DNA of 64,000 nucleotides from Aequorivita echinoideorum. GTDB taxonomy: Bacteria; Bacteroidota; Bacteroidia; Flavobacteriales; Flavobacteriaceae. Position 1 is the stretch's first letter. Every line of letters begins with the position of its first letter. The notes under the pieces were generated by a model that did not search any database, was not told where the DNA came from, and worked only from the letters and a program-made list of their open reading frames with translations. Of this stretch, positions 1,508-26,200 are shown one piece after another. The DNA lies in assembly GCF_018476645.1 (NCBI RefSeq), contig NZ_JAHCTB010000002.1, positions 372,001 to 436,000 of the forward strand, written 5' to 3'. A program made the translations under genes and the position numbers.

Positions 1508-1517
1508 TGTCCTTTTG
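1508..1517 (+). promoter_or_regulatory. TGTCC + T-run box, short form
   Basis: TGTCC (1508-1512), then TTTTGCC. Other copies in this prophage have about 27 bases between TGTCC and TTGC; here the two boxes are almost fused, as if the spacer had been lost. It lies 39 bases upstream of the ATG at 1547, in the same orientation. This is the weakest member of the seven-copy set. Confidence 0.35.
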
Positions 1518-1546
1518 CCATTAATAAGAAAAAATGATATTCGCTT

Positions 1547-2302
1547 ATGGAAATAATAGATTGGTTTAAAAATCAAGACTACAGAATAGGTGTATCGCTC
1601 TACGCGGCGCATCCATCAGCCAAGAACAGAATATTACGAGTGCTGGAGCAAGGAAAAAGCGACCGGAATATGGCTACGCTTATCCGTGAGCTTCGCATGA
1701 TAAAAAACGAATGCCCAGCACCGGAAAAACCAAAAACGATTCCTCCACCGCCCAAACCCGCCCCAAGAGTGGAAAATATTGGGCAACAAGAATCAGAACG
1801 CGCACATTTAAAGGAATTGGCTGCCAAAAGTTACTTCCAAAAAATAAGATACGGCGAACTTCCACCAGAATTAAAGGAGCGTTTCCGAAAGGCCAAGGAT
1901 CTATTCTACGATATGTGTGATCTGAAATTTCAATTGAACGATCTTCCAGACGAAAAAGAAAACGAGGCATTGTCATTAATGCTTCAAATAGAGGAATTGG
2001 ATGAGCAGAAAGACACAATTTGGAAAGAACTGGAGCATTGGCAGCTTTACAAGACAAAACTGCCCGTAAAAGCCTCTGAGGACTTTTCAAAACTTGAACC
2101 CTTGGAGCTGGACCGCAAGCGCCGGAATTTGAAAAGCCAGATTTCAAAAAAGAAAAAAAGAATTTCGAAATGGCAAGCTGCCGCCGAAAAGGAAACCGAT
2201 AAAATTGAACACCGAAAAATATTACAACAGATAAACCGAACCGAAAAATCATTGCACCAGGACGAAATAAACCTGCGTAAAATTCAGGATCTGCTTAATT
2301 GA
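1547..2302 (+). CDS. Charged coiled-coil phage protein, function unknown
   Basis: 251 residues. The N-terminal 45 residues form a compact region (IIDWFKNQDYRIGVSLY). A Pro-rich linker at about 58-75 (PKTIPPPPKPAPR) follows. The rest, about 110-251, is strongly charged and helical, with long Glu/Lys-rich stretches typical of coiled coil. There is no signal peptide. It stands alone between a terminator and a convergent gene it overlaps by 8 bases. A scaffold, an internal head protein or a DNA-binding accessory factor would all fit; none is shown by a motif. Confidence 0.5.
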   Translation: MEIIDWFKNQDYRIGVSLYAAHPSAKNRILRVLEQGKSDRNMATLIRELRMIKNECPAPEKPKTIPPPPKPAPRVENIGQQESERAHLKELAAKSYFQKIRYGELPPELKERFRKAKDLFYDMCDLKFQLNDLPDEKENEALSLMLQIEELDEQKDTIWKELEHWQLYKTKLPVKASEDFSKLEPLELDRKRRNLKSQISKKKKRISKWQAAAEKETDKIEHRKILQQINRTEKSLHQDEINLRKIQDLLN

Positions 2303-2603
2303 TTGGCTGGAGGAAATAGGCAAATCCTTTCCATCCTTCAAATACCACGACTGTTTCTCCTTCTTCATTTTTTTTAGTCACAGGCTCACTTTCAAAGTAA
2401 AAACTTTTGAAACCTAATTCAGTTAACGCTTCGTAAACTTCGCTTTCGACTACCCAATCACGAGGTAATATAGACACCAACATTGAGTGAATTGATGATA
2501 AAGATTTTTTTAAAGTTTCTTCGTTTTCGTGCGCCTCTGAAAGCACTGGCTCAAAGTTGTTTTTAAGGAAATTCCGGATTTCTTCGCTATAATCTATTTT
2601 CAT
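2295..2603 (-). CDS. Small acidic phage protein, unknown
   Basis: 102 residues from the ATG at 2603; a TTG two codons further upstream gives the same frame but is less likely. It is acidic, with no membrane segment and no recognised motif. Its 3' end overlaps the convergent 1547 gene by 8 bases. It follows terL in the same direction, after the 41-codon extension frame described separately, so it may be the last gene of a terS-terL operon. Confidence 0.45.
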   Translation of the reverse strand: MKIDYSEEIRNFLKNNFEPVLSEAHENEETLKKSLSSIHSMLVSILPRDWVVESEVYEALTELGFKSFYFESEPVTKKNEEGETVVVFEGWKGFAYFLQPIN

Positions 2604-2642
2604 TCTCAAAAATATTTAGTTAATATTCTGTTATTCAATTTT

Positions 2643-2768
2643 TTAACATTTGGAATCGTAAAAGATTTTTTCAAATTCTCGCCCTGTTAAACCGCCGTGA
2701 CCTATAACGATATGACTTTTGCCACCCCATTTTTCAGCGAAATATGAAACGGGGTCTGGCCTTGGGCT
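2643..2768 (-). other. 41-codon protein-like frame directly after the terL stop, +1 frame
   Basis: Reading past the terL stop in the +1 frame gives 41 sense codons and then TAA (2643-2645), with a protein-like composition (SPRPDPVSYFAEKWGGK and onward). The frame has no ATG, GTG or TTG start between its upstream stop and the terL stop. The junction reads TTT TAG C, where a Phe tRNA could slip forward by one base at a slow stop codon. It could be a C-terminal extension of terminase made by +1 frameshifting, a frameshift mutation or sequencing error in terL, or the remnant of another gene. Confidence 0.35.
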
Positions 2769-4290
2769 AAAAAGTTGATATTGGTAGGTCTTCTTGCTTT
2801 ACGGAACTGCCATTGAATTGATCCCAGAACATTGCAAAGAATGGATAGTCAAAGGTGTCACTAAGGTGTGTGGCGTGCTCCTGCTCCACTCCCTTACGTT
2901 GCTCTGGCCGTTTATCTTTCTCTAGGCCACGTCCACGATCATAAGCCTCGGCATGCTCCATTGATATAATAAGGTTTGGGCAGTTCGCTTTATTGATACG
3001 AATCTTCGGCAAATTCTTTTTGCCGTCATATTTAAGTGCTGAGTTGATAAGTCTAAACTTCAAAACATAATCTGGATTTGCACCGGTGGTCATCAGATAC
3101 ACGTTCCATCCCAGCTTTTGCAGTAACTCCTTAGCTTGCTCGGCAAAGGTTAGCTTTGAGTTGGCTATTCTGTTGTTACCGGTACGGTCATAGTACATAT
3201 ATAGGTCCCTGCACGTGTGGGTGCGATAGTATGGCGCAAACTGCTCAATAAATAGATCATCAAGTATCTTCGGGCTCTTCACAAAGAATTCTTTTAACAC
3301 AAACCAAGTATCGTCCTGCAATTGATGTACAGTCATAGCATTTATGTTTGCACCCCAATCCACTGAAATAATCAAAGGATCACTCTTTATAACATCACTA
3401 TCCTGCTTGCTATTGAATACATTCCCACTCAAATCAGTAAGAGGAATCCCTTCCAGATAATCATTGTCAAAGTTGGTATAATAATGGTCCTCGGTAAGTT
3501 GTGGGTAAAAGCCGTCTGCTATTTCCTTGGGACGGATGTTCAGCATCTCGGCATTGTACACCAATTCGCTGCTGTAGCTATCTTTCATATATTCGAAGTA
3601 ATCCGCCCGCACATTATCAAGATTCCAATGAGCAGTAGCAGAATGAAAGAAAATATCCTCTGGCTTCCGCTTTGCTAATTCCTCACCCTTTAAAAACCAC
3701 GCCCCTTTCTTGGTAAGTGGTGTAGAACTCACATAAGTTTCTGAAAGCAAATAAGGATTATCACCGTGAATGGCGCTCTTGGCAATCGCCCGGTTCGTGT
3801 TCTTTACGTTAATCGCCAGCTTTTCATCATCCAACAAAGCAGCTTCATCTGCCAATATTCCAGAAGAATTAATACCACGACCCCCATTACTACTATTAGG
3901 GTTATCCAAGCCAACCAATTGAAATACCGTACCATTACTAAAATGAATAATATTATTCCAATTATTCGGCTTCTCATACGGCATTTTATACCCTAGCCTA
4001 CGGCCTTGGCTACTGCCCACCACATAATCAATATCCTCATAAATCCCGAAAAATTCCAGCGCCTTTTTGGTAGATTTAAGTGTGTTACTGAGTACCTGCG
4101 CATACGTACACCCCACCAAGATAAAAGTGGCGCGGGGCATATATTTTGCCATCATCAACATAAAATAGGCGAGAATGGTACTCTTACCAGTTCCACGTCC
4201 CCATTCCAGATATTTAATTTTCTGGGTAGCGGTAATAGCAACAATCTGGGCGAGATTGAGCGTTATTTTCCTATTCCTGCTCGTCCTCAT
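2767..4290 (-). CDS. terL: Terminase large subunit
   Basis: 507 residues. This is the packaging ATPase/nuclease that pumps phage DNA into the prohead and cuts it. Walker A is GRGTGKST at residues 31-38. A Walker-B-like segment (GILADEAALLD) lies near residue 145. The C-terminal half carries an RNase-H-like nuclease with an acidic start (IISVDWGANINAMTV) near residue 308 and a later Asp in YYDRTGN. Length is normal for the family. The ATG overlaps the 3' end of the small-subunit gene by 20 bases, so the pair is probably translationally coupled. It runs opposite to the portal gene. A possible +1 extension follows its stop codon. Confidence 0.9.
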   Translation of the reverse strand: MRTSRNRKITLNLAQIVAITATQKIKYLEWGRGTGKSTILAYFMLMMAKYMPRATFILVGCTYAQVLSNTLKSTKKALEFFGIYEDIDYVVGSSQGRRLGYKMPYEKPNNWNNIIHFSNGTVFQLVGLDNPNSSNGGRGINSSGILADEAALLDDEKLAINVKNTNRAIAKSAIHGDNPYLLSETYVSSTPLTKKGAWFLKGEELAKRKPEDIFFHSATAHWNLDNVRADYFEYMKDSYSSELVYNAEMLNIRPKEIADGFYPQLTEDHYYTNFDNDYLEGIPLTDLSGNVFNSKQDSDVIKSDPLIISVDWGANINAMTVHQLQDDTWFVLKEFFVKSPKILDDLFIEQFAPYYRTHTCRDLYMYYDRTGNNRIANSKLTFAEQAKELLQKLGWNVYLMTTGANPDYVLKFRLINSALKYDGKKNLPKIRINKANCPNLIISMEHAEAYDRGRGLEKDKRPEQRKGVEQEHATHLSDTFDYPFFAMFWDQFNGSSVKQEDLPISTF

Positions 4291-4873
4291 CTTTATTTTT
4301 CAATTCCTCAAAATCAATATCTATGGTATCGCGAACATTCATATTTACAACCCCACCCTGCGCGTGTATCATCTTAATAAGCCGCGCCTGCTTGTTGCTG
4401 ATTATAATATCATAATTTTGGCTTGCAATCTTATCCAGATCAATAGGGCTATCCTCCTTATCCAACCCAAGCAACTTATCAATTGCCTGGTCAAATTTGT
4501 ACACCATTTCCATATTCTTTTCCTTCAAAGCAATCTGCAAATACTTGTGTTTGCGCTCAATTTGTATGTACCGCCACGCTTCCTTATCAAACCGCTTAAA
4601 ACTGCCAAATAGCATTTCCGTACGCTTCACATCGCGGTATGCCGTGGCCTTGCTCACGCCAAAAACAGCTACAAGCTTCTTCACGGCATCCTCTTGGCTG
4701 CGAAATTCCAGCATCATCTGGAAAGCCGCTTCCCAGCGTTTTTTTAGTTCTATTTCAAAAGGGGAAAGAAGCGCCAGTTTCTGTTCTTCCGTGCGCTTAT
4801 CATCTAGGTAAAAGGCCAGCACATTCTCAAAATGCGTATCGCGCCCTTCAGTAGCCAAACTAACTTCACTCAA
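4271..4873 (-). CDS. terS: Terminase small subunit (DNA recognition)
   Basis: 200 residues, upstream of and overlapping terL. A helix-turn-helix is visible at about residues 61-85, centred on FGVSKATAYRDVKR, as expected for the subunit that recognises the packaging site. The middle is charged and helical, suited to ring assembly, and the C-terminal tail is very acidic (NKDEDEQE). The ATG lies 18 bases downstream of the leftward TTG element of the TGTCC-box promoter candidate. Assignment rests on the HTH, the size and the terL neighbour. Confidence 0.8.
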   Translation of the reverse strand: MSEVSLATEGRDTHFENVLAFYLDDKRTEEQKLALLSPFEIELKKRWEAAFQMMLEFRSQEDAVKKLVAVFGVSKATAYRDVKRTEMLFGSFKRFDKEAWRYIQIERKHKYLQIALKEKNMEMVYKFDQAIDKLLGLDKEDSPIDLDKIASQNYDIIISNKQARLIKMIHAQGGVVNMNVRDTIDIDFEELKNKDEDEQE

Positions 4874-4890
4874 AATCGTTCATTTTCCAT

Positions 4891-4926
4891 CAAAATTGCA
4901 CCATTCACAAACCCCAAAAAAGGACA
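4891..4926 (-). promoter_or_regulatory. TGTCC + T-run promoter candidate driving terS-terL
   Basis: On the minus strand TGTCC reads from 4926 to 4922, followed by six T, and TTG occurs at 4893-4891, 33 bases after the start of TGTCC. It is divergent from the matching box at 4971, so the two operons terS-terL and 5011-portal would be driven outward from one intergenic region. Confidence 0.5.
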
Positions 4927-4930
4927 CACA

Positions 4931-4962
4931 AACCAGCAACTAGCAACTAGCAACCAGCAACC
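4931..4962 (+). repeat. Heptanucleotide array CAAC(T/C)AG, about 4.5 copies
   Basis: Units CAACTAG, CAACTAG and CAACCAG stand head to tail, with partial copies at both ends, exactly between the two divergent TGTCC boxes. Similar seven-base arrays with CAAC cores occur at 6931 and 7973, which suggests a common origin by slippage or dispersal of the same low-complexity unit. Confidence 0.8.
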
Positions 4963-4970
4963 AAAATCCG

Positions 4971-5007
4971 TGTCCTTTTTTAGAAATCCAAACAGCCTCA
5001 AATTCGC
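4971..5007 (+). promoter_or_regulatory. TGTCC + T-run promoter candidate upstream of the portal operon
   Basis: TGTCC at 4971-4975 is followed by T at 4976-4981. A TTCGC element lies at 5003, exactly 32 bases after the first T, in the place where other copies have TTGC. The ATG at 5011 is only 8 bases further, so the transcript would be almost leaderless or the start may be further downstream. Confidence 0.5.
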
Positions 5008-5010
5008 TCT

Positions 5011-5361
5011 ATGCAGCAAACCGTATATCTAAATGATGTCCTAGAAGAAATGCGCACCCCAAATAAAGAAGGCCGTGCCATTAAGTTCAATATGTCCGTG
5101 CGTAGCCTTAATAAAAACAGCAAAACGGGCGGCAAGATGTACCATTATGAAAATGCCAAGCTGGTAATGGAGGAAACGCCTTTGGATCCACTTGGCATCA
5201 AAGCGTTGCAGATGCTTCCTTCAGAAAAAAGGGAAACCTTCAAAAAAAGCCCCAATCACTTTAAAAACAAGACCCGAAACATCCGCTTGGAAGATGGAAG
5301 CATCAAGAAAATCCACATCAAGCACATCATCCGTTTCAATGGAAAAACCGTAATCTACTAA
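5011..5361 (+). CDS. Small basic phage protein before the portal gene
   Basis: 116 residues, basic and rich in Lys and Asn, with no membrane segment. Its stop overlaps the portal ATG by one base (TAATG), indicating translational coupling. A second Met at residue 14 could be an alternative start, given the short leader behind the promoter candidate. The family is not recognised; the position between terminase and portal suggests a packaging or head-assembly role, which is inference. Confidence 0.55.
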   Translation: MQQTVYLNDVLEEMRTPNKEGRAIKFNMSVRSLNKNSKTGGKMYHYENAKLVMEETPLDPLGIKALQMLPSEKRETFKKSPNHFKNKTRNIRLEDGSIKKIHIKHIIRFNGKTVIY

Positions 5362-6692
5362 TGGCAACACAGCATTCACAGCACTTATATTTTGGCAAGG
5401 GCGGCACCACCGCAGTACATTTTTCTGATAGCAAGGAAAGCCACACAGTCATAAAGCCAGAGGAAAAAGGAAATAATAAAATAGCATTATGGGGCGATGA
5501 CAACCGTTATCCCCAAAACTTCTTGGAAACCCTACGCAAAAATGGGGCAGGTGGAACAAGTTACCGCCTCATGAAGGCCGCTCACTACGGCCAGGGTTTC
5601 CGACTGAATAGAACAGACCAGACCGATGACGGCAAGGAAGACAAAAGCGTGGTGCCGCTTTCCAGCCAACCAGACATCCTGCATTTTTTCAACCGGAGCA
5701 AGATGCCACGCGTTTGGACTGAAGTAATAAATAACTTGGAAACGTGGAATATCGCGTTTCCGGAATACATTCTCAGCAACGATTTCAGCAAGGTGGTTTC
5801 GCTTCGCAACCAGCCAACCGCCAAAATGCGCTATGAGCTGATTAACCCAAAAACGGGTCTGATCGAAAACGCCTATTTCTGCCATAATTGGCAATCCGGA
5901 ACAGACGTAAAAAGCGAATACGTACAGAAAATTCCCGTGGTAGATATATACGCTTCCGCGGAAGAAATTAAGGAATACTGCAAGAAAAATAAGTTCCACA
6001 AATTCGTGATGCCAATATTTTATCCAATGCTGGATGAAATCTACTATCCGGAAGCAGACCACCATTCCGTGTATAAAAATGGGTGGATGGAAGTGGTAAA
6101 CAACATTCCGGACTTCAAAAAATCGTATGCCAAAAACCAGTTGAACATCAAATTTATGGTGTACATCAGTGATGAATATTTTGTGAAGACCTATGGCGAC
6201 GACTGGCAAAAATATACCCTCGATAAGAAAAAGGAAATCCGCCAAGCCCTTTCCGATGCTATAGACAACCATCTTTCCGGCAATGCCAATGCGGGCAAAT
6301 CCATACAGACCACCGTATTTAAGGACCGCGAAGGAAAATGGGTAAAAGGAATTGAAGTAGTGCCGCTGGAAACCAAAACCAATAGCGATGGTACAATGCT
6401 TTTAGATGCCAGTGGTGGTAATGCCGAAATTATGGGTGCCATTGGTGCAGACCCGGTTTTGATGGGCGTAGGCATACCCGGCAACAAGCTAAACGGCAAC
6501 GGCGGCAGCAACAAGCGCGAAGCATTGAGCATTTTAAATGCCCTAATGAAAACCAAGCGCGAAACCACCTTGGAAATATGGCGCACCCTACGCGATTACA
6601 ATGGTTGGGATGCCACTTTGGAAGGCGATTTTGCCGTAACCGAATTAACAACCCTGGACAAAAACCCAACCGGAACTGAAAATAAATTTTAA
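5361..6692 (+). CDS. Portal protein
   Basis: 443 residues. It is called as the portal, the ring at the capsid vertex through which DNA enters and to which the tail attaches. The evidence is position after the divergent terminase genes, the size, and a typical N-terminal region (ALWGDDNRYPQNFLETL at about 42-58). A Gly/Asn-rich segment near 375-385 (GVGIPGNKLNGNGGSNKR) precedes the C-terminal helices, as in many Bacteroidota phage portals. No membrane segment is present. A stretch beginning at Lys264 (KFMVYISDEYFVKTYG) is closely matched by the separate 72-aa protein encoded just downstream. The assignment is from overall character and context, not a diagnostic motif. Confidence 0.75.
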   Translation: MATQHSQHLYFGKGGTTAVHFSDSKESHTVIKPEEKGNNKIALWGDDNRYPQNFLETLRKNGAGGTSYRLMKAAHYGQGFRLNRTDQTDDGKEDKSVVPLSSQPDILHFFNRSKMPRVWTEVINNLETWNIAFPEYILSNDFSKVVSLRNQPTAKMRYELINPKTGLIENAYFCHNWQSGTDVKSEYVQKIPVVDIYASAEEIKEYCKKNKFHKFVMPIFYPMLDEIYYPEADHHSVYKNGWMEVVNNIPDFKKSYAKNQLNIKFMVYISDEYFVKTYGDDWQKYTLDKKKEIRQALSDAIDNHLSGNANAGKSIQTTVFKDREGKWVKGIEVVPLETKTNSDGTMLLDASGGNAEIMGAIGADPVLMGVGIPGNKLNGNGGSNKREALSILNALMKTKRETTLEIWRTLRDYNGWDATLEGDFAVTELTTLDKNPTGTENKF

Positions 6693-6717
6693 TGTCAGGT
6701 CGAGCGCAGTCGAGACC
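6693..6717. repeat. Dispersed REP-like repeat after the portal stop
   Basis: TGTCAGGTCGAGCGCAGTCG and flanking GAGACC form an imperfect palindrome of the kind scattered in Flavobacteriaceae chromosomes. It begins one base after the portal stop codon. A related copy sits in the same position, directly after a stop, at 14224. Confidence 0.7.
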
Positions 6718-7972: not shown

Positions 7973-8012
7973 CAACCATCAACTATCAACCATCAACCAT
8001 CAACCATCAACC
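7973..8012 (+). repeat. Heptanucleotide array CAAC(C/T)AT, 5.7 copies
   Basis: Five full units (CAACCAT, CAACTAT, then three CAACCAT) plus CAACC. The array starts 6 bases after the stop of the 7025 gene and ends 8 bases before the TGTCC box at 8020. Confidence 0.85.
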
Positions 8013-8019
8013 AAAAGAA

Positions 8020-8057
8020 TGTCCTTTTTTAAAAACCACAACTAACGGAAATTGCCA
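8020..8057 (+). promoter_or_regulatory. TGTCC + T-run promoter candidate upstream of the tail fibre
   Basis: TGTCC at 8020-8024, T to 8030, and TTGCCA at 8052-8057, exactly 32 bases from the first T. The tail-fibre ATG is 45 bases beyond TTGCCA. Confidence 0.5.
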
Positions 8058-8062: not shown

Positions 8063-8097
8063 TATTCATTATTCATTAATAATTATTCATTAAAGAA
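8063..8097 (+). repeat. Second heptanucleotide array, TATTCAT units
   Basis: TATTCAT, TATTCAT, TAATAAT, TATTCAT and TAAAGAA: five seven-base units, three of them identical, filling the leader between the promoter candidate and the tail-fibre ATG. Its last base is the A of the start codon. Confidence 0.7.
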
Positions 8098-10712
8098 TGT
8101 CCGCACAACGCCCAAGCGATCTTTTTAAGAACAAAACAAACGTGAATCCGGTTATCAACCGTGCCACGCAAGCCACTGCGGAAGATTTCCAGGAGGCGGG
8201 CGTCATTTTGGAAGACCACGCCACAATATTGGATAATCTGGCAAGGCTCGACCACGCCGACTTTGAGGGCGTTTTTGCATCGCTGGGCGCAGTTACGGCC
8301 GCAGTGCCACAGCCTACGGCAGATAATGCCTTTGCCATCATCACAACGGGAAGCGGAAACGCTATTGAAATTGCACGGTTTATTGATGAACAATGGCAGA
8401 TACAGAACCCAACGGACCAAATACTATTGTACGCCAACCGCCTTGCATTTCCAGCCACGGGAGTGGACAAAGTATGGTATATAGATATTTCCGCAATGCG
8501 GCCGTATTTGTGGTTTAACAATGCCTACAATGGCTTTGGCTCAAAACCCGCGCCTGCGCCAGATATTCATTTTAAAAATTATTTTTTGCCGCTTACAGAT
8601 GTGCAGCTGGCACAACAGCCTTTGGGCGTAATAGCAGATGCTATTCTGGCGCACGCTCCCTGGTCCTGCGATGCGGGCCAGAAAATGCAGTTTTATACCA
8701 TAAAGCTAATTGGTGACGAAGAAAACTACACGCTGGAGCAACGGTTTTATTTATTGAACAGAAACGTTACCGAAATCCCCGAAGCCTCAAATCTGGAAAT
8801 TGGTGCGGGCGATATTATTCCCTTGGGCAAGGTTGAAATCTTTCTTGAAAATGAATTGAACCAACTGGTAGTACCATTGGGAAATATTGGCACAGAAGCT
8901 ATTGAAGATGTGTTTAACCAAGGCGATGGCGATGGCTTTCCTTGGATGCAAAAAACATTTTTATACGTTACCGCCACCCAGACCATTGAGGGCGAAAGCG
9001 TGAGCAAACGCTATATTTTTGATGCGCCCGCGGGCAACTACGGCGGCGATGATCTGGGCGAAGATCCAGAAGTGCTGGAAGCTTTTGATTATATGTTTAA
9101 GGATATTACCGACCAGCCAACCGCCGCCGCTTCAAGTCTCACCAATATATCTCTAGTAGCAGACCAAGCAAACGCGACGATTTCTGTACTGGACCAAAAC
9201 GGCAATGTACTGTCAGTTTTACCTGTTGGCTTCTTAAACAACGAGGGCACAACTTTTTTCTATAATGAAGCTACCGAAAAACTGGAGCTTCAGAATGATG
9301 CGGGCGAGGTGCTTTCTGAAATTCCAGTAAGTGCCTTTGTAAGCAATCTGGCGGCGAGTATTGCGCTTGTTGGGCAAGAAATACAACTAAAAGATACGGC
9401 AGGCAATGTACTAAGCAGTTTTACGCTTACAAAAGCCGCCGTGGGACTGGATAAAGTAGCCAACAAAACCGAAGCTGAAATGGTGGAAAGTGGAGATATT
9501 GCGGATGCTTTGGCGAATAGGTTGAAAAAAACTGGGGAAACTTCACAGGTGGTTAAAGGAAAAGTAATTGTAAGAGGAAATGCTGTTGGCGCTGATTCTG
9601 TTTTTGATACGTATAATGAAGCGGTGAGCTCCTATTTAGGTATGTCCAATTTCATTGCCCCTAACGCTCCAAATAACAGTCGTATATTTCAAAGTATCGG
9701 CAAATCAGCTTCTTTAAATAACCGTGCGGTTATGCAATTTGCATTTTTTTCATCTGGAAACGATCAAAATTATTACGGAATAGGTTTTTTTGGAAATGAC
9801 GATGTTTTAAAAATATTGGCTAATAACAATGCTATTCTAAAAGGAAAATACTTTTCGGGCGCAGGCAACTCCGACCAATGGCAGGAAGCGTTTGCTAAAA
9901 AAATAAATGCGATAAGTATTACCGGCGATACTAATAAAACCATTACCATCACGCGTGAGGATGGCACCACGCTCACCGCTTCTTTTTTAGATAATGGCGG
10001 CGAGGAATTCCCCGATGATGTTTTAAACACGTTATCCTTTAATTTAGGAAATGATGGCGTTCTTCGTGCGGTTACTTCGGAGGGTGCAATCATTACCGTT
10101 TCATTGGATGGGCGATATTCGTTGCTTGGGCATTTACATACTATTGCGCAAATCGCGGGACTGGAAGATGCTTTGGCGGAAAAAATTTCAGCTACCAATT
10201 TAACCGAAAGAATTATTTTCCAAAAAATAGTAACGGATGGTTCTACTGGACTTATAAATGCAACGGGAACATCGTACCAAGATATTTCCGAGGTGTTTTC
10301 TATTCAACCAGAAGATATGGTAGTAGGAAGTTCCTTAAAGTTTTTTGTCTATGGAAATTATACGAAGAATGGAAGTCCAATAGGAAATGTGGCACTTTTT
10401 GCAGATGGAGTAATGGTGTGCGAACTGCCATTGACTGGAATAGCTACAACGCAACAAGCCTTTGCGAGATTTGAATTTGACGTTGATTTTACCGAAAGTG
10501 ACGACGAGACGCGCACCTTTGCCGCCCACGGCTACGGAACATCAAAAAGCGGTCAGAACGCTCGTGTTTGGGACTTAATAGGCGGTGGTACGGTAGATGC
10601 TTCCACGCCAAAGGATTTCGTAATAAAATTTCAGTGCGGAAGCGCAACCAGCGAGAGTTTCAACTCAATCAAAAGAAAAGTAACCCGCGAAAATTTAAAG
10701 GGAATAATTTAA
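8097..10712 (+). CDS. Tail fibre / receptor-binding protein
   Basis: 871 residues and one of the largest prophage genes. The N-terminal third is mixed; from about residue 340 there are repeated beta-rich segments with Asp/Gly/Asn turns (for example LVGQEIQLKDTAGNVLSSF). Near residue 676 is GHLHTIAQIAGLEDALAEK, a His-x-His type motif common in phage fibres and other trimeric beta-structured adhesins. No signal peptide. It probably contacts the host surface. The internal beta repeats and the isolated transcription unit, with its own box and leader, suit a gene that varies between related phages. No enzymatic domain was noticed. Confidence 0.75.
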   Translation: MSAQRPSDLFKNKTNVNPVINRATQATAEDFQEAGVILEDHATILDNLARLDHADFEGVFASLGAVTAAVPQPTADNAFAIITTGSGNAIEIARFIDEQWQIQNPTDQILLYANRLAFPATGVDKVWYIDISAMRPYLWFNNAYNGFGSKPAPAPDIHFKNYFLPLTDVQLAQQPLGVIADAILAHAPWSCDAGQKMQFYTIKLIGDEENYTLEQRFYLLNRNVTEIPEASNLEIGAGDIIPLGKVEIFLENELNQLVVPLGNIGTEAIEDVFNQGDGDGFPWMQKTFLYVTATQTIEGESVSKRYIFDAPAGNYGGDDLGEDPEVLEAFDYMFKDITDQPTAAASSLTNISLVADQANATISVLDQNGNVLSVLPVGFLNNEGTTFFYNEATEKLELQNDAGEVLSEIPVSAFVSNLAASIALVGQEIQLKDTAGNVLSSFTLTKAAVGLDKVANKTEAEMVESGDIADALANRLKKTGETSQVVKGKVIVRGNAVGADSVFDTYNEAVSSYLGMSNFIAPNAPNNSRIFQSIGKSASLNNRAVMQFAFFSSGNDQNYYGIGFFGNDDVLKILANNNAILKGKYFSGAGNSDQWQEAFAKKINAISITGDTNKTITITREDGTTLTASFLDNGGEEFPDDVLNTLSFNLGNDGVLRAVTSEGAIITVSLDGRYSLLGHLHTIAQIAGLEDALAEKISATNLTERIIFQKIVTDGSTGLINATGTSYQDISEVFSIQPEDMVVGSSLKFFVYGNYTKNGSPIGNVALFADGVMVCELPLTGIATTQQAFARFEFDVDFTESDDETRTFAAHGYGTSKSGQNARVWDLIGGGTVDASTPKDFVIKFQCGSATSESFNSIKRKVTRENLKGII

Positions 10713-12306: not shown

Positions 12307-12820
12307 AAACATCGTAATCCACTGCACGGCCGGACACAGCAACGCAGAGGCTGTACAGAGTTATTTCACGCGCCCCAAAAGCAAGGGTGGCCGTGGCTGG
12401 AAAAAAGGAGGCTACCACCGTATCATTGAAAAAGATGGGACCATTAAAAAAATGTACGATTTTTCAGAAATAACCAATGGCGTAGCCGGGCATAATTCAG
12501 ACACTATCCACATCAGCTATGTAGGCGGTGTTGAAATTTTGGACGTAAACACGGCAAAAGATACGCGCACGCCTTATCAAAAAAACGCCTTGCACACCTG
12601 CATTCACGAGGCCATTAAATGGTGCAAGGAAAACGGGCAAGACATCACCAAGGATTTGGGCGTTGTGGGCCACCGTGATTTTTCAAAAGACGGCAACGCC
12701 AATGGTGTGATTGAAAGCTGGGAAAGGATTAAATCCTGCCCAAGTTTTGACGTCCTTCCGGAATATTCAATGCTGTATGCCAGCCCAGACAGATACAACA
12801 AACTTCCATACAATAAATAA
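12293..12820 (+). CDS. N-acetylmuramoyl-L-alanine amidase, phage endolysin
   Basis: 175 residues, an Amidase_2 (peptidoglycan-recognition-like) domain over nearly the whole length. The zinc-binding His of NIVIHCTAG lies near residue 10, further family residues at HISYVGG, and the second zinc site in GVVGHRDF near 123, followed by CPSFDV. It cleaves the bond between MurNAc and the stem peptide at the end of the lytic cycle. There is no signal peptide, so release depends on a holin, consistent with the two membrane proteins upstream. It overlaps the previous gene by 14 bases. Confidence 0.88.
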   Translation: MRKVRNIVIHCTAGHSNAEAVQSYFTRPKSKGGRGWKKGGYHRIIEKDGTIKKMYDFSEITNGVAGHNSDTIHISYVGGVEILDVNTAKDTRTPYQKNALHTCIHEAIKWCKENGQDITKDLGVVGHRDFSKDGNANGVIESWERIKSCPSFDVLPEYSMLYASPDRYNKLPYNK

Positions 12821-12822
12821 TT

Positions 12823-13416
12823 ATGAAAGAACGCACCCACACAGATAATGTCCGCATCATTTTAATAATGCTGGCCTGCGCATTGCTTGGTTTTTCCATT
12901 TTCTTTTTCGGCGGTTGCGCCAGTAAGAAGAAAAATAAGCGAAGTGATGTCTATATTGAGCAGGTTGCGCGCAAGGAAATGAGCAATCTCATTCTGAAAA
13001 ACCAGACCGAAAGCGTTGAGACGGTGAACGCCATTACGGACACACACCGCCAGAACGTTCTGCAAAATTTCACCGGGAAAGTGGCAAACTACAACGTTCC
13101 CGCACAACGTACTATTGAAGAAAAAAACGGAATGATAACCGAAACCTTTTATGGCTTTTCGGAAGTAAAATCTTCTTCAGAAAAAAAAATAGAGACGGTC
13201 CGCGATTCCTTTAACAATGTTCTTTCAAAAAAGGATTCCATTATTTTGGAACAACAACGCCTGCTTGACGAAGACAAAAACCTGCAATTAAAATCGAAGG
13301 AAACCGATATTGATATCAAAAGAATGAGTACTTGGATTGCCCTTGGAATTGGCTTAGGTATAATAGCATTGCTAATCTTCCTGTACATCCGCAGAAAAAA
13401 ACGCCAAGTTTTATGA
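12823..13416 (+). CDS. Unimolecular spanin candidate
   Basis: 197 residues with the layout of a u-spanin, the protein that fuses inner and outer membranes in the last step of lysis. It has an N-terminal hydrophobic segment at about 10-31 ending in a lipobox-like FFGGC (Cys32), about 135 polar residues with coiled-coil character, and a C-terminal membrane segment at about 170-189 followed by RRKKRQVL. It starts 2 bases after the endolysin stop. A protein anchored at both ends beside an endolysin is the pattern seen in phage T1 gp11. If the lipobox is not used it would instead be a two-anchor inner-membrane protein. Confidence 0.6.
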   Translation: MKERTHTDNVRIILIMLACALLGFSIFFFGGCASKKKNKRSDVYIEQVARKEMSNLILKNQTESVETVNAITDTHRQNVLQNFTGKVANYNVPAQRTIEEKNGMITETFYGFSEVKSSSEKKIETVRDSFNNVLSKKDSIILEQQRLLDEDKNLQLKSKETDIDIKRMSTWIALGIGLGIIALLIFLYIRRKKRQVL

Positions 13417-14222
13417 GAGTGAACATTAAAATACCAACATCATGGAACCAACTTTCACCGCGCCAGTTAATGGAATCAGCGCACAACCTAGAGTATTTCC
13501 ACAACAAACCGGAAATAGTAAAAGAATTGCCTGGATTCCGGCAGAAGCTGTATTTTCAGCTGGTTAAAGTATTGCTAAAAAGCAATAATTTCATAAAAAC
13601 GTGGATTGCCATAAAACAGATACCGCCACAGGCGTACCAGGCGCACGCCAAGTTTTTATTCTCAGACGTTACCCGTACCCTTTTTTTGCCCCCAATAAAA
13701 AGAAATCGCATCACTTTTTATCCGCCTGCCGATAGGCTGAAGAATATTTCAATAGAGGAATTTTCACTGGCAGATTCGCTGTATGTAAATTATAGAAAAA
13801 CTACAGATGTGCGTTATCTTGATAATCTGTGCGCCACGCTCTACCGCAGAAAATCAAAAAGTGATAATGACACTACCGACACAAGACAGCCTTTCAGCAA
13901 AATATTGATTGAGCGTGACGTGAAATTTTTCCAAAAGCTGAACCACAAAAAAAAGCTGGCAATACTATATGCCTACGCCGGTTGCCGTAACGCCATAGCG
14001 GCCGCGCATCCGCATGTATTTCCTGCGCCCCAAACGTTGGTGGATCCAGACGGCAACCCTATAAAACAGCAATCCGGGGAATATGTACCCTTTGGCAAGT
14101 TGATACAGCATAAAATAAATTACGATCCCAGCAAGCTGGAACCCACGCTGAAATTGAATGCCTGGGCATTTCTGGGAAATTATGAAAATGAACTCGTTGA
14201 AATTAAAAACCTAAAGAAATAA
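13413..14222 (+). CDS. Phage protein of unknown function
   Basis: 269 residues from the ATG at 13413, which overlaps the previous stop (ATGA). The frame is open further upstream, but that part lies in the spanin gene and has no good start. The sequence is soluble and mainly helical, with a conserved-looking core SLADSLYVNYRKTTDVRYLD near 123-142. I have a faint impression of similar uncharacterised proteins in Bacteroidota prophages. It lies between lysis genes and a tail-completion-like gene, so a minor virion or assembly role is possible. Confidence 0.5.
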   Translation: MRVNIKIPTSWNQLSPRQLMESAHNLEYFHNKPEIVKELPGFRQKLYFQLVKVLLKSNNFIKTWIAIKQIPPQAYQAHAKFLFSDVTRTLFLPPIKRNRITFYPPADRLKNISIEEFSLADSLYVNYRKTTDVRYLDNLCATLYRRKSKSDNDTTDTRQPFSKILIERDVKFFQKLNHKKKLAILYAYAGCRNAIAAAHPHVFPAPQTLVDPDGNPIKQQSGEYVPFGKLIQHKINYDPSKLEPTLKLNAWAFLGNYENELVEIKNLKK

Positions 14223-14223
14223 A

Positions 14224-14247
14224 TGTCAGGCTGAGCTTGTCGAAGCC
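14224..14247. repeat. Dispersed REP-like repeat after the 13413 gene
   Basis: TGTCAGGCTGAGCTTGTCG followed by AAGCC, 2 bases after a stop codon. It is the same family as the copies at 6693 and 11647 and as host dispersed repeats. Confidence 0.8.
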
Positions 14248-14264
14248 CTAAATAACACGCTATT

Positions 14265-14765
14265 ATGACGCACGCACCCATCATTGCCTATTTAGAAAAC
14301 TTGAATGCAAAACTGGTAGATTTTGCCGAAAATTCCTTTTTCCGGATGGACCTTGCCGAAATTACGGGCGCATTCCGCAAAGGCATTACCTTCCCGGCCA
14401 TGTGCGTGGAAAGTCCGGAGGGCGATGCCGAAAACAGCACAAAGAACAACAGCGTGCTAAACCGCACCTGCGCCTTCACCATTTACAAAAAACCGCAGCA
14501 AGGCAATTTTATAGATCAGGATGAAAAAATAGACGACTGCGAAAAAATAGGCTTAAAGATCATTGCCCGTATGCGGTTGGACAATGCCGCCCCCGACAGC
14601 CCATTGTACAATAAATTTGAGGTTGCCAGCGTGCGCTGGGTAAAGGTAGGCCCTATTTTTAACGAAGGCCTGTACGGTTATCGCTTCATTTTCACCATTG
14701 CCGGTGATGAAAAGTTGATTGTTAATCCGGATGATTGGAGTGATATTGAAAATGTCTGTAGTTAG
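14265..14765 (+). CDS. Phage protein, possible tail terminator
   Basis: 166 residues, soluble, mixed alpha/beta, beginning MTHAPIIAYLENLNAKLVDF. The size, the initial helix and the later RWVKVGPIFNEGLYGYRF strand pattern resemble tail-terminator or neck proteins of siphophages, but no diagnostic motif is visible. It is the last gene before the accessory cassette; the next structural gene in the same direction is at 17725. Confidence 0.4.
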   Translation: MTHAPIIAYLENLNAKLVDFAENSFFRMDLAEITGAFRKGITFPAMCVESPEGDAENSTKNNSVLNRTCAFTIYKKPQQGNFIDQDEKIDDCEKIGLKIIARMRLDNAAPDSPLYNKFEVASVRWVKVGPIFNEGLYGYRFIFTIAGDEKLIVNPDDWSDIENVCS

Positions 14766-14857
14766 GGTTCTATAAATTTTCCAAAAAATTTCCATCGATT
14801 TTCCACGTTTTCCAAAAAAAACACGAAAACAAGAAATTTAAGAAGTAAAGTTTAATT

Positions 14858-14880
14858 CCCTCGAATTCGAGGGATTTTTT
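14858..14880 (+). terminator. Intrinsic terminator, perfect palindrome
   Basis: CCCTCGAATTCGAGGG (14858-14873) is a perfect 16-base palindrome followed by six T at 14875-14880. It closes the structural operon and opens directly into the TGTCC box at 14882. Confidence 0.85.
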
Positions 14881-14881
14881 A

Positions 14882-14938
14882 TGTCCTGCCCCCACACAAA
14901 CCTATGCCCCCACCATTGCCATAAATTTGCTACCTTAG
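14882..14938 (+). promoter_or_regulatory. TGTCC box plus TAnnTTTG-type elements before the secreted protein
   Basis: TGTCC at 14882 lacks the usual T-run. TTGCCA follows at 14916, 34 bases later. Two standard Bacteroidota -7 elements are also present: TAAATTTG at 14922-14929 and TACCTTAG at 14931-14938, 33 bases before the ATG at 14971. The gene may therefore respond to both host and phage transcription. Confidence 0.45.
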
Positions 14939-14970
14939 CAAAATTCCTCGGTAACTTAAAATTTTATGGT

Positions 14971-15531
14971 ATGAAAAAAGTTATTACATTTTTTGCGGTT
15001 TTATTTGTTATGCTAATAACACATTCCCAAAATCAAGTTGAAAAATTTGAAGTTACGCCAAGTGGAATTAATGGTTATGTTGTTTCGGAATTTGAAAAAA
15101 TGTCCGCCGATAGTCTTTATAATCAAGTAAAAAAATGGGCTGAATATAATATAAGAAATGCGGAATTTTCAAAACAATCAGAAATAGAAAATGAATATTT
15201 AAAATATGAAATAATTGTCCCAAACGCAATCTCAATTCTAAATGGTGGAACTAACAGAATTAATTGGGACGCTAGGTTACAAATGATTTTTAGATTTAAA
15301 AATGAGAAAATAAGAACAGATATTCAAATAATAGAATTACCCCCAAATGACCAAATATATGGTTATCCTTTCCAAATAGTTGGTGGCGGCCTTACTTGGT
15401 CATTTTTTAAGAAGAAAGGTGAATTGAAAAAATATACTTCAGAAGCAAAATTAGAATTTGACAATTTATTAAATTCTTTTCCTGCTCAAATCGAGGATTT
15501 TATAAAAAATCCTAAAAAAAGTGATTGGTAA
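14971..15531 (+). CDS. Secreted moron protein, DUF4468-like
   Basis: 186 residues from ATG 14971. An ATG at 14881 is in frame, but it lies on the terminator/promoter and would bury the signal peptide. A signal peptide (MKKVITFFAVLFVMLITHSQ) is followed by a mature part containing KMSADSLYNQVKKWAEYN and YEIIV...RLQMIFRFKNEKIRTDI. These resemble DUF4468 proteins, a periplasmic or surface family with a TBP-like fold, assigned from memory. The gene has its own terminator in front, its own promoter and AT-rich codons unlike its neighbours. These are signs of a moron, a gene carried for the lysogen rather than for virion assembly. Confidence 0.55.
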   Translation: MKKVITFFAVLFVMLITHSQNQVEKFEVTPSGINGYVVSEFEKMSADSLYNQVKKWAEYNIRNAEFSKQSEIENEYLKYEIIVPNAISILNGGTNRINWDARLQMIFRFKNEKIRTDIQIIELPPNDQIYGYPFQIVGGGLTWSFFKKKGELKKYTSEAKLEFDNLLNSFPAQIEDFIKNPKKSDW

Positions 15532-15553
15532 TTATAATTATTTATTACTTTAG
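15525..15553 (+). promoter_or_regulatory. Bacteroidota-type promoter for the structured RNA
   Basis: TTG at 15525-15527, an 18-base spacer, then TACTTTAG at 15546-15553, one mismatch from TAnnTTTG. A start site about 5-7 bases downstream would fall at the 5' strand of the GTCTAAAC helix at 15558. The TTG lies at the very end of the upstream coding sequence. Confidence 0.5.
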
Positions 15554-15557
15554 CAAA

Positions 15558-15694
15558 GTCTAAACGGTACAAGGAGAAATCCCGAACCACATTTTTTAAC
15601 GATAGAAACCCTGTACGGTGGCCAAAACGAAAGTTAGGCAATCCAGTCCTTGACTGTTTAGACACGCCTACGCAGGGTTTCGTTTTATTTTTTT
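15558..15694 (+). ncRNA. Candidate structured RNA with crossing helices and terminator
   Basis: Helix 1: GTCTAAAC (15558-15565) with GTTTAGAC (15656-15663), extended by CAAGG (15570-15574) with CCTTG (15648-15652). Helix 2: GAAACCCTG (15605-15613) with CAGGGTTTC (15673-15681), followed by a T-rich run to 15694. The helices cross, so they form either a pseudoknot or mutually exclusive states, in which helix 2 is a terminator and helix 1 an antiterminator. Smaller pairings are GGA-GAAA-TCC (15573-15582) and a GCC/GGC hairpin at 15621-15639. A promoter sits directly upstream, and the ATG of the next gene follows 4 bases after the T-run. No known RNA family was recognised. Confidence 0.55.
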
Positions 15695-15698
15695 CGAT

Positions 15699-15974
15699 AT
15701 GTCTAAAGAAGAAAACCAAAACACCACCGTTCCATTAAAGGACCGCGTGTACCAAGCCAATTTTAAATTGATTGATTCCGCCAGCGCAAAAAGTATGCTG
15801 GATGACCTTACCACCATGTTCTTTGCCTATTTGGGCAGCGATTTTGCAGACCCCAAGCCCGCCCGCCAAAGCTGCAGCTACACCTTTGAGCTGCTGGGCG
15901 CGTTCCTTACCGATCTTAACAAGATTGAGAAACAGCAAAAACAAGCGGGATGGCCCCGGGAAAACGCAAAATAG
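15699..15974 (+). CDS. Small phage protein downstream of the structured RNA
   Basis: 91 residues, soluble, ending in a Lys/Gln-rich tail. The middle reads SAKSMLDDLTTMFFAYLG, probably helical. No motif is recognised. The ATG overlaps the end of the T-rich stretch of the candidate RNA, so expression could depend on transcription reading through that terminator. It is followed 7 bases later by the integrase-arm-domain gene. Confidence 0.5.
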   Translation: MSKEENQNTTVPLKDRVYQANFKLIDSASAKSMLDDLTTMFFAYLGSDFADPKPARQSCSYTFELLGAFLTDLNKIEKQQKQAGWPRENAK

Positions 15975-15981
15975 AAGAACT

Positions 15982-16236
15982 ATGGCACTGCACAACCCCT
16001 ATTCAGAACCAAAACTATTTATCCCGCGGGAGGATGGCAAGCCCTCCGTGGGCAAGGGCAAGTACTGGTACGTTTATTTTTACCTGCGCCCCGTCCCCGG
16101 CAAGCCGTATGAAAGAAAGGTAACGCTTCGGGAAAACATAAACTCCCTTAAAACCCCTGCAGAGCGCAGGGCAATGGGGAAGCAACTATGTAAGGCCTGT
16201 TCCATTGCCTTGGAACGTGGCTGGCGCCCAGAATAA
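15982..16236 (+). CDS. Stand-alone copy of the integrase N-terminal arm-binding region
   Basis: 84 residues from ATG 15982; the frame is open further upstream but overlaps the previous gene. Aligned by eye with the first ~85 residues of this prophage's integrase, about 48 positions are identical, including PKLFIPR, WYV, ERRA, GKQLCKA and LERGW. The integrase catalytic region is absent; translation stops cleanly after Trp-Arg-Pro-Glu and the following DNA is unrelated AT-rich spacer. The family's N-terminal region binds arm-type att sites, so this protein could compete with integrase, assist excision or act as a repressor of att/int. It sits 9 kb from the integrase gene. Confidence 0.7.
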   Translation: MALHNPYSEPKLFIPREDGKPSVGKGKYWYVYFYLRPVPGKPYERKVTLRENINSLKTPAERRAMGKQLCKACSIALERGWRPE

Positions 16237-16263
16237 AAAAATTAAAAAATAAAATCAAAAATT

Positions 16264-16593
16264 ATGAAAGCAACAGAAGAAGCATACGATAGAGCAAAGG
16301 AAATTGAAGGAGAAATGGAAGCATTATCTATTTCCCTAAAAAACATCAATACTGAAATTGATAACTTTAAAAAGTACAAAGCCAATATGGAAGCCCAATT
16401 AAAGCTTTGGCAGGAAAACGAAAAAGAACAAACCCCAAAGGCAATGAAAGCTTTGGAAAAAAATGCCAAAATAGTAATTGCTACGTGGGATAGATTTATT
16501 GCGGAATCACACAGCGCTGGGCAGGAAATGGCTGAGCGCTACGCAGAACTTATTAATGCATTGGACGACATTTACGATCATCACGGGCTATAG
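16264..16593 (+). CDS. Small coiled-coil phage protein
   Basis: 109 residues, almost entirely charged helix. Heptad-like spacing in the first 60 residues (MEALSISLKNINTEIDNF) suggests coiled coil. There is no membrane segment or signal. It follows the arm-domain protein after a 27-base AT-rich gap and ends before a terminator, so the two may be co-expressed. Function unknown. Confidence 0.5.
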   Translation: MKATEEAYDRAKEIEGEMEALSISLKNINTEIDNFKKYKANMEAQLKLWQENEKEQTPKAMKALEKNAKIVIATWDRFIAESHSAGQEMAERYAELINALDDIYDHHGL

Positions 16594-16618
16594 CCTTACT
16601 ACTAACGCTACCTATTTA

Positions 16619-16649
16619 CCGTCTTCCAGTTGTGGAAGGCGGTTTTTTT
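16619..16649 (+). terminator. Intrinsic terminator in the accessory cassette
   Basis: CCGTCTTCCA pairs with TGGAAGGCGG (one G-T pair), followed by seven T. It is immediately followed by the TGTCC box at 16651. Confidence 0.8.
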
Positions 16650-16650
16650 A

Positions 16651-16686
16651 TGTCCTTTTTTTAGGGCATCACCTTTGCCAACTTGC
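16651..16686 (+). promoter_or_regulatory. TGTCC + T-run promoter candidate before the paralogue pair
   Basis: TGTCC at 16651-16655, seven T to 16662, and TTGC at 16683-16686, exactly 32 bases after the first T. The likely start ATG at 16704 is 21 bases further. Confidence 0.5.
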
Positions 16687-16703
16687 ACCAAATAAGAAAA
16701 GTT

Positions 16704-17003
16704 ATGAAAGCAGAAACTACAGAAAACCCGTACAGTCTTTTTTTTAAAAAAATAGGGTTAAAAGGCGGCGATCAATATGATAATGGTTTCACGGCATACC
16801 ATAAATTTGAATGTGGCACGAGCATCCATATTTCTTGCTTCAATAACATACTTAGCGTATATTTAGAAAACCAAGGGTTACGGCGCGAGCCTGTGGATGG
16901 TGTACGTTGCGCTACTTTAGAAGAAGTGCGCTCTATTATATCCAGAATTTTAATTGTAGAACATTTATTGCCAGGCTTACACAAGAAAATCTTGGACGCC
17001 TAA
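16704..17003 (+). CDS. Small protein, first of two tandem paralogues
   Basis: 99 residues from ATG 16704, chosen because the paralogue begins in the same way (MK-x-ETT); the frame is open for 7 more codons upstream. It shares with the 17023 protein the pattern EN-x-Y-x-x-FFK-x-x-G-x-K, Y-D-x-GFTA, GTS, N-x-GL, TLE-V, and LPGLHKKIL near the end. Soluble; no known family recognised. Lying in a moron-like cassette it may be a host-modulating or anti-defence protein, which is speculation. Confidence 0.5.
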   Translation: MKAETTENPYSLFFKKIGLKGGDQYDNGFTAYHKFECGTSIHISCFNNILSVYLENQGLRREPVDGVRCATLEEVRSIISRILIVEHLLPGLHKKILDA

Positions 17004-17022
17004 ACATTTTAAAACAAGCTTT

Positions 17023-17346
17023 ATGAAATCAGAAACTACCAATAGCACGCTTCAAGAAAATACCTACAACCGTTTTTTTAAAAGCCTCGGTTTTAAGACC
17101 ATTGGTGAATATGATCACGGTTTTACGGCACATCTAGAAATTAAAAACGGCACATCCCTATTTATAAGAGGTGTGGATAATGTACTGCACGCAAAAGCAG
17201 AAAACAACGGGCTTGAAAGGTACATTGCAGACTCCCATAGGTACAGAACACTGGAAGACGTACTTTTTTTCCTTTCCAGATCGGTAGTCTTGGAAGGTAA
17301 TTTTCCAGAACTACATCAAAAAATTCTGCAACGCCTGGCCGGTTAA
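17023..17346 (+). CDS. Small protein, second of two tandem paralogues
   Basis: 107 residues, 19 bases after its paralogue and similar to it along its whole length (EYDHGFTAHLEIKNGTS, ENNGLER, FPELHQKIL). Overall identity by eye is around a third, so the duplication is old. The 3' end overlaps the convergent gene at 17311-17610 by 36 bases, so the two transcripts would collide or form an antisense pair. No catalytic motif is visible. Confidence 0.5.
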   Translation: MKSETTNSTLQENTYNRFFKSLGFKTIGEYDHGFTAHLEIKNGTSLFIRGVDNVLHAKAENNGLERYIADSHRYRTLEDVLFFLSRSVVLEGNFPELHQKILQRLAG

Positions 17347-17610
17347 CCGTATTGCTTTTAGCTGGTAACTCAATTCCGTTTCTTCATCCAGATTCCTAAG
17401 TGGTGTGTATTCGGCTTCTACCGCTATCACTTCATTTAGTAATGCTATTTCATTTTTTGTATTCTCAAACTTTTTTAGTATTGCTTTTGCTTCACGTGCA
17501 ATATTGGTTACCTGCGTAACCGTATTTAGATCAAAATCTTTAAAAAGACTTAATTTGAAATGCAAATGCTTCACAGCTTCTTCAGCTTGAACTCTATCCA
17601 TTTTCCCCAT
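17311..17610 (-). CDS. Small helical protein, convergent with the paralogue pair
   Basis: 99 residues, acidic and helical (MDRVQAEEAVKHLHFKLSLF), with no membrane segment. A promoter-like TTG-N17-TATATTTG lies 22 bases upstream on the minus strand, which supports it as a real gene rather than an antisense shadow. It overlaps the convergent 17023 gene by 36 bases at the 3' end. In a short region with a paralogue pair it could be an antagonist or antidote, but nothing in the sequence proves this. Confidence 0.5.
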   Translation of the reverse strand: MGKMDRVQAEEAVKHLHFKLSLFKDFDLNTVTQVTNIAREAKAILKKFENTKNEIALLNEVIAVEAEYTPLRNLDEETELSYQLKAIRLTGQALQNFLM

Positions 17611-17631
17611 AGTTTTATTTGATTAGCCTTT

Positions 17632-17659
17632 CAAATATAAGCATTTACCAGTAGCGCAA
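17632..17659 (-). promoter_or_regulatory. Bacteroidota-type promoter of the 17311 gene
   Basis: On the minus strand TTG (17659-17657), a 17-base spacer, then TATATTTG (17639-17632), an exact TAnnTTTG. It differs from the TGTCC boxes in the same cassette, so this gene is probably expressed in the lysogen by host RNA polymerase. Confidence 0.5.
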
Positions 17660-17673
17660 GAGCGTTACCGCGC

Positions 17674-17711
17674 TGTCCTTTTTTTAAAACTCCAGAACCC
17701 CCAACTTGCCA
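17674..17711 (+). promoter_or_regulatory. TGTCC + T-run promoter candidate of the tape-measure operon
   Basis: TGTCC at 17674-17678, seven T, and TTGCCA at 17706, exactly 32 bases after the first T; the ATG at 17725 follows 19 bases later. GCGCT just before TGTCC can pair with AGCGC at 17653, giving a weak hairpin before the T-run. Confidence 0.5.
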
Positions 17712-26198: not shown

Positions 26199-26200
26199 AC

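Follow-up and report, generated by a model that had tools for sequence, protein, structure and literature searches.

The DNA considered here is a stretch of 64,000 nucleotides of the flavobacterium Aequorivita echinoideorum (the window; contig NZ_JAHCTB010000002.1, C20:372001-436000 within the 2.93 Mb genome), the left part of which belongs to a prophage. The intergenic gaps of this prophage and of related phages contain, mostly before late operons, a box of the form TGTCCT[T/A]TTT(T), followed at a fixed spacing by an element resembling the -7 box of the host. It is likely, with a probability of about 0.7, that the box forms the upstream half of a late promoter which depends on an activator and is read by the host RNA polymerase. 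The best candidate for the activator, with roughly even chances, is g161, an orphan early phage protein of 161 amino acids (aa). The evidence throughout is the sequence itself; open reading frames (ORFs) were obtained with a simple script of our own, and the transcription start (+1) was transferred from another flavobacterium.

The prophage begins to the left of the window, where positions are negative, and ends at the integrase gene 24966-26288, which adjoins tRNA-Leu (26320-26404). The stretch counted as prophage runs from window position -22999 to 26700, the left end being assumed for the counts. Rfam models at the gathering threshold find two tRNAs in the window and nothing else. Among named phages, the closest relative found is Polaribacter phage Leef_1 (Helgolandviridae; NC_062750), the terminase of which is 68% identical and the late gene order of which is similar. 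The copies of the box were scored with a profile trained on 101 boxes, this prophage being left out; offsets are counted from the first T of the box.

1508..1543, plus strand: box and -7-like element of the 251-aa gene (1547-2302); score 10.3, short T-run, ATG at offset 39, approximately at the predicted +1 (1548).
4891..4926, minus strand: box and -7-like element (CAATTTTG) of the terS/terL genes; score 31.8, predicted +1 at 4886; the terS ORF (4271-4873) starts with TTG.
4971..5006, plus strand: box and -7-like element (CAAATTCG) of the 116-aa gene and portal operon; score 26.3, ATG 5011 at the predicted +1 (predicted leaderless).
8020..8055, plus strand: box and -7-like element (GAAATTGC) of the 871-aa gene (8097-10712); score 23.7.
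16651..16686, plus strand: box and -7-like element (CAACTTGC) of a small gene with ATG 16704; score 25.5, behind a terminator-like hairpin.
17674..17709, plus strand: box and -7-like element (CAACTTGC) of the neck/tape-measure operon; score 25.1, ATG 17725, predicted leader of 11 nt.
C20:369258 (window -2742, outside the window): a further copy, before the head-protease gene; score 23.6.

The first-pass annotation of this DNA had named seven copies in the window. TGTCC is present at all seven coordinates, and the copies 4926 (minus strand), 4971, 8020, 16651 and 17674 contain TGTCCTTTTTT. Six copies hold as members, whereas the copy at 14882 (TGTCCTGCCCCC), with a score of -25.3 and without an element at offset 29, does not. 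At window 14882-14930 there is a TGTCC without a T-run behind a terminator-like hairpin and then a host-type TAAATTTG; this is probably the host-type promoter of an accessory gene. The copy at 1508, taken earlier for a shortened form, owes its low score to a short T-run; the element (A, then TTCG, window 1537-1543) nevertheless stands at the standard offset 29 with normal spacing, and in the matching promoter of locus L033 the ATG is at offset 40. The distances of 32 bases to TTGC and 33 to TTG given for other copies reflect a spacing that is indeed fixed, but to one element at one offset (A29, TT 32-33), read as TTGC, TTTG, TTCG and so on. The 871-aa gene encodes a homologue of the tail spike of Leef_1. 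Short direct repeats (AACCAGCAACTAGC..., CAACCATCAACCAT...) lie immediately upstream of the boxes 4971 and 8020 (window 4926-4970 and 7980-8019).

The geometry was derived from 109 non-redundant intergenic boxes (101 from relatives and eight from this prophage), thinned from 153 distinct ones; they were picked by TGTCCT[AT][AT]T between ORFs, so that offsets 0-8 are fixed by construction. Beyond this pattern, A29 is conserved in 100 boxes, T32 in 87, T33 in 104, T34 in 71 and G35 in 72. When the forms A..TTTG, A..TTGC, A..TTAG, A..TTCG, A..TTTA and A..ATTG are counted, the element begins at offset 29 in 92 of the 109 boxes, at 30 in three and at 33 in one, while the background at offsets 50-99 averages 1.2 per offset. 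The commonest form is TTTG (36/109).

In the transcript map of Flavobacterium psychrophilum, the sigma-A box is given as TAnnTTTG at -12 to -5, with a variant TAnnTTGY termed SM5 (PMC9723704). On this scale offsets 28-35 correspond to -12 to -5, the box to -40 to -30 and offset 40 to +1. Compared with TAnnTTTG, the 109 boxes have A at -11 in 100 cases, TT at -8/-7 in 87/104 and G at -5 in 72, and the first T (-12) is retained in 28. Read on the published geometry, the A..TT element would be a -7 box of the host type that has mostly lost its first T. The previous view, which set a TTGC element apart from the host TAnnTTTG type, is not supported: the element occupies the place of the host -7 box, has the same A..TT core, is most often TTTG, and in its TTGY forms resembles SM5. 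The TTTG element at -33 of sigma-A promoters was not found in the boxes, the T-run of the box occupying that place; it is weak also in a small host sample (29 promoters). In comparison with the sigma-A promoters of Bacteroidota as described (TAnnTTTG at -7, TTTG near -33; PMC9723704, PMC7366714), the downstream element at -12 to -5 and its A..TTTG core appear to be shared, whereas the usual loss of the first T, the conserved upstream TGTCCT box and the frequent ATG at the predicted +1 are distinctive.

According to the proposed mechanism, host polymerase with the housekeeping sigma factor would recognise the degenerate -7 element (A..TTTG and variants, often lacking the first T), and a phage DNA-binding protein made early would bind TGTCCT[T/A]TTT(T) at -40 to -30, replacing the host -33 element, and recruit or hold the polymerase. 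The head-protease, 251-aa/terminase, portal, spike and neck/tape-measure operons would be started in this way, often just behind the terminator of the preceding operon. Many of the portal-operon and 251-aa promoters would have the A of the ATG as their first transcribed base and give leaderless mRNAs.

A similar arrangement is known from the middle promoters of phage T4, described as a MotA box combined with the sigma-70 -10 element and used by sigma appropriation (PMC2988021). In both systems a phage box replaces the host upstream element and a host-type downstream element stays, the spacing is fixed, the box is asymmetric and the genes served are middle or late phage genes; a box in the place of the upstream element was found here at fixed spacing (offset 29 in 92 of 109 boxes; -40 to -30 on the published geometry). 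The sequence and spacing differ, however, the T4 box being centred at -30, and a Bacteroidota -7 box stands instead of TATAAT. This -7 box is weakened, whereas T4 middle promoters are reported to need a good -10 element (PMC2988021). The predicted leaderless geometry and a candidate activator, g161, that shows no match to known families are further differences.

The same position could be explained by the operator of a phage repressor that silences late genes in the lysogen, the host polymerase alone using the -7 element once the repressor is gone. The box overlaps the -33 region, the number and spread of the boxes would suit silencing through multiple operators, and position alone does not separate an activator from a repressor. 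Nevertheless, a weakened -7 element (first T in 28 of 109) and a box that replaces the -33 element fit activation better, and an exact spacing of 29 bases suits contact with the polymerase, whereas a repressor site would tolerate shifts. A repressor operator is considered unlikely.

It is similarly improbable that the box and the -7-like element are recognised jointly by a sigma factor, either of the phage or an alternative one of the host, such as the factor to which the SM5 TAnnTTGY is due. The rigid spacing and the likeness of the TTGC/TTGY forms to SM5 as reported (PMC9723704) speak for this explanation. However, TTTG is the most frequent form, the distance between box and element is longer than in the usual two-element promoter, and a host sigma factor should also have promoters of this form in the host, where they occur near chance level. 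A search confined to sigma-70 region 2 (PF04542), and hence not aimed at other or highly divergent sigma types, gave no match in the prophage or in any of 18 phage records; elsewhere in the host there are 16 matches. An activator is therefore likelier than a sigma-like factor, and of the earlier proposal of a dedicated sigma-like or activator protein, the dedicated phage factor fits and the sigma-like part has become less likely.

The activator-dependent promoter is consistent with the position of the start codons. No usable ATG lies within 130 bases in 20 of the 109 boxes; in 35 it begins exactly at offset 40, and every other distance occurs at most four times. A29 and T33 are kept equally in boxes with ATG at 40 (33/35 and 35/35) and in those with ATG at 41-130 (44/47 and 46/47), as a promoter would show. 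Among 20 phages surveyed, 9 of the 13 promoters found for the 251-aa gene and 11 of the 14 for the portal-operon leader gene have their ATG exactly at the predicted +1; of the 12 neck promoters, 10 have predicted leaders of 10-13 nt. Provided that the promoters are active, leaderless initiation at those with ATG at +1 is quite likely, as predicted from the geometry. Leaderless mRNAs are given as 5.5% in F. psychrophilum (PMC9723704), and in Bacteroides thetaiotaomicron about 3.7% of 5' untranslated regions are listed as shorter than 10 nt (PMC7366714).

Some other features of these promoters were seen. At the head-protease promoter, in L077, L084, L047 and others, the -7 region forms a dyad with the first transcribed bases (TTGTATCGTT ... 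AACGATAC), which is proposed to be an operator or a 5' hairpin at the first late promoter. In L043-L054 a second conserved motif, TGTCCCT(A/T)AAAATTTTTTCACTTTCCATTT..GAAAATCTAGGAAATATG, lies on the minus strand just behind terL, and the 251-aa gene promoters of the same loci contain a ACACTTTCCAT element.

The first-pass annotation had placed four boxes behind a hairpin, and the sequences support a frequent position of this kind: a terminator-like T-run (at least five T in a row in the preceding 12 bases) precedes 36 of the 109 boxes, and 29 of these also fold. The box could itself be a terminator or RNA element in which TGTCC pairs with an upstream GGACA and the T-run is the U-tract; in relatives, the divergent terS/portal-operon pairs read AAAAAAGGACA-N-TGTCCTTTTTT and could fold. 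A stem directly before the T-run, as in an intrinsic terminator, was not found, GGACA within 25 bases upstream being present in 18 of the 109 boxes alone, and a U-tract accounts for neither the offset 29 nor the ATG at 40. Since offset 29 holds whether the ATG is at 40 or further and most boxes have no upstream GGACA, such a role is very unlikely.

The box motif is real and common to related phages. The strict form TGTCCTWTTT-N19-ANNTT, which fails to catch the copies at -2742 and 1508, occurs eight times in the 2.93 Mb genome: five times before prophage late genes, once in the early region of the prophage (-14702) and twice elsewhere; its reversed control occurs twice genome-wide. Profile matches of at least 23 number six in the 49.7 kb prophage versus none in 344,122 sampled host bases (best host score 21.1), where seven places score at least 12 and none reaches 21.2, and where all six copies of TGTCCT[TC]TTT lie within ORFs. 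In the host part of the window there is one match (23.7), at 40071 on the plus strand, inside the minus-strand ORF 38894-40273. In 49 loci fetched through g161 (786 kb, of which ORFs cover about 89%), TGTCC followed by T[AT]TT was found 108 times between genes versus 14 times within them, and five letter permutations gave 1-9 intergenic and 19-39 internal occurrences. The GTCCT control (66/13) was omitted from this range because it overlaps the box itself; further controls gave 4/7 (GGACA) and 5/10 (ACAGG). At least one such intergenic box is present in 47 of the 49 loci, some of which are near-copies of one another. The sequence thus supports the claim of a phage-specific promoter-like unit that lies in gaps, points at the gene behind it and is rare in the host. 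Although prophage gaps are T-rich and the listed copy 14882 is indeed due to chance, an origin of the motif in chance or T-rich composition is refuted by the controls, as neither permuted letters nor reversed patterns reproduce the signal.

To survey the genes served, the pattern was relaxed to [TA]GTCCT[AT]T plus A29 or TT32-33 and applied to the 20 phages. Boxes precede the genes of the head protease (18), portal leader (14), 251-aa protein (13), neck protein (12), terS (6), the late gene c6 of unknown role (6), spike (4), portal (2) and g161 (2), and one gene in each of three other families; a further 23 precede genes outside the 24 commonest families, and three have no ORF behind them. Leef_1 has six boxes, all before late genes in the late part of its genome and none in the early part (18-29.5 kb). 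Genomes G506 and G508 seemed boxless at first, but by eye TGTCCTTTC[CT] or AGTCCTTTCC precede some of the same genes. A scan of viral contigs with TGTCCTTTTTT-N18-ANNTT-N6-ATG gave at least 120 stretches; 78 were examined, and 67 of these encode at least one relative of these phages' proteins (tblastn E <=1e-6), some of them perhaps generic.

Box and g161 also coincide among bacterial genomes. In 397 genomes of the host's family, the ATG-form box pattern occurs in nine, g161 in ten and both in seven (Fisher test 1.5e-11), and all 11 box places in the seven shared genomes lie within 20 kb of g161. The reversed pattern occurs in six of the 397 genomes, none of which has g161. In named genomes, 15 g161 loci were found, and all 15 have an intergenic box with a score of at least 18, although some (e.g. 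L283) belong to the training set; their hosts are Zunongwangia, Mesonia, Thermobacterium, Galbibacter, Aquimarina, Flavobacterium and an uncultured member of Flavobacteriaceae. No profile match of 18 or more occurs in the Flavobacterium phages 6H and laban6-1 (laban6-1 has one of 14.8), whose terminases show about 24% identity along most of the protein. A tblastn search of 50,697 phage records with two g161 queries matched the two Leef_1 records only.

The g161 gene (C20:368196-368681) precedes g178 and the first late box, and its Leef_1 homologue, gp39 (46% identity), is likewise encoded ahead of the late boxes. In protein clusters of the 20 phages, the terminase, portal, tape measure, protease and a 346-aa protein are present in all 20, an integrase-type family and six late-region families in 19, and g161 and two late-region families in 18; a profile search found g161 in the remaining two phages as well. 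It is the only family this common that is neither integrase nor late-region, a weak argument given the sampling through g161. The LuxR-type regulator (present in 12 of the 20 phages) and g178, encoded between g161 and the protease (15 of 20), were rejected as candidate activators.

Two AlphaFold models of g161 (mean pLDDT 86 and 87.7) have a strand-helix-helix N-terminus. Besides the Leef_1 homologue, fold searches gave weak matches to viral ribbon-helix-helix (RHH) proteins (best E 0.05 in BFVD); Foldseek against the PDB gave nothing below E 1 and one RHH-type chain at E 7.9, and neither sequence nor fold relates g161 to the T4 MotA family. DNA binding by g161 is a lead rather than a result. 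Offset 6 of the box tracks the g161 subfamily: rows with residue Y (22) have T in 39 boxes and A in none, whereas rows with residue K (11) have T in three and A in 26, T being found in the two residue-K rows L086 and L093. Such a match would be expected from co-evolution and from shared descent alike.

The putative promoter of g161 itself (upstream of 16196 in L010; window about -3850 to -3805) contains a full host-type -7 box, TATATTTG. In close relatives (L056-L069) this promoter shares CATTGGATTTTAACATATATTTG, and in L056, L057, L061, L063 and L066 TGTCCTTTTTTT also stands before the -7 box, which suggests positive autoregulation of g161. In the window prophage the promoter has no box, and GGATTTTT/AAAAATCC flank the -7 box. 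Behind the g161 stop codon, an inverted repeat GGGACA...TGTCCC is present in L010 (about 16668-16701), L058, L068, L070, L075 and L076; one possible reading is a terminator, another a pair of box-like half sites that serve autoregulation. Shortly before g161 lies a tyrosine-recombinase gene (window -4690 to -3881), so that with the one at the right end (24966-26288) the prophage has two; Leef_1 likewise has two annotated integrases.

Several observations weigh against the activator-dependent late promoter and the role of g161 in it. The support comes from sequence comparison, with a +1 borrowed from another flavobacterium. A few of the 109 boxes look chance-like (L010:5298, L103:11112, L042:6528). 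The first of these is the minus-strand site at -14702 (score 17.2) in the early region, which contains another weaker box-like site at -15013 on the plus strand (15.1; L010:4987); the site at -14702 sits just within a doubtful ORF on its own strand and may reflect chance or early-region use. The exact ATG-form pattern is missing in three of the ten g161 genomes, two of the g161 matches are weak (2.5e-7 and 8.4e-4; both in genomes without the box pattern), and g161 is missing in two of the nine box genomes, which is within chance, as the reversed pattern occurs in six genomes. Among records behind box matches, many of them fragments, the g161 profile was found in 12 of 31, including four of the 11 records whose stretch showed no related protein (E 1e-26, 2.7e-12, 2.9e-7 and 2.5e-5). 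Fifteen of the 20 phages were fetched via g161 and three via the box, and the coincidence of box and g161 is expected also from shared descent. Finally, g161 has no convincing match in the Pfam, PHROG, NCBIfam or PDB sequence families.

The open-access literature searched describes no late promoter or late activator of Bacteroidota phages and gives nothing relevant on the box; the word 'promoter' is absent from the main text of the Leef_1 isolation paper (PMC8776804). The fuller proposal is more tentative and falls somewhat short of even odds: an undescribed late control of Bacteroidota phages, in which g161 would represent a new activator family that reads the asymmetric TGTCCT box and redirects the sigma-A polymerase, with leaderless portal and 251-aa/terminase operons. 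If this is true, the box would be a signature marking late operons in unannotated Bacteroidota genomes and metagenomes. It would also provide a candidate activator and a phage-controlled signal for expression in bacteria where common promoters do not work, as well as a set of orthologous genes, predicted to be leaderless, in a phylum that does not rely on Shine-Dalgarno sequences to start translation.

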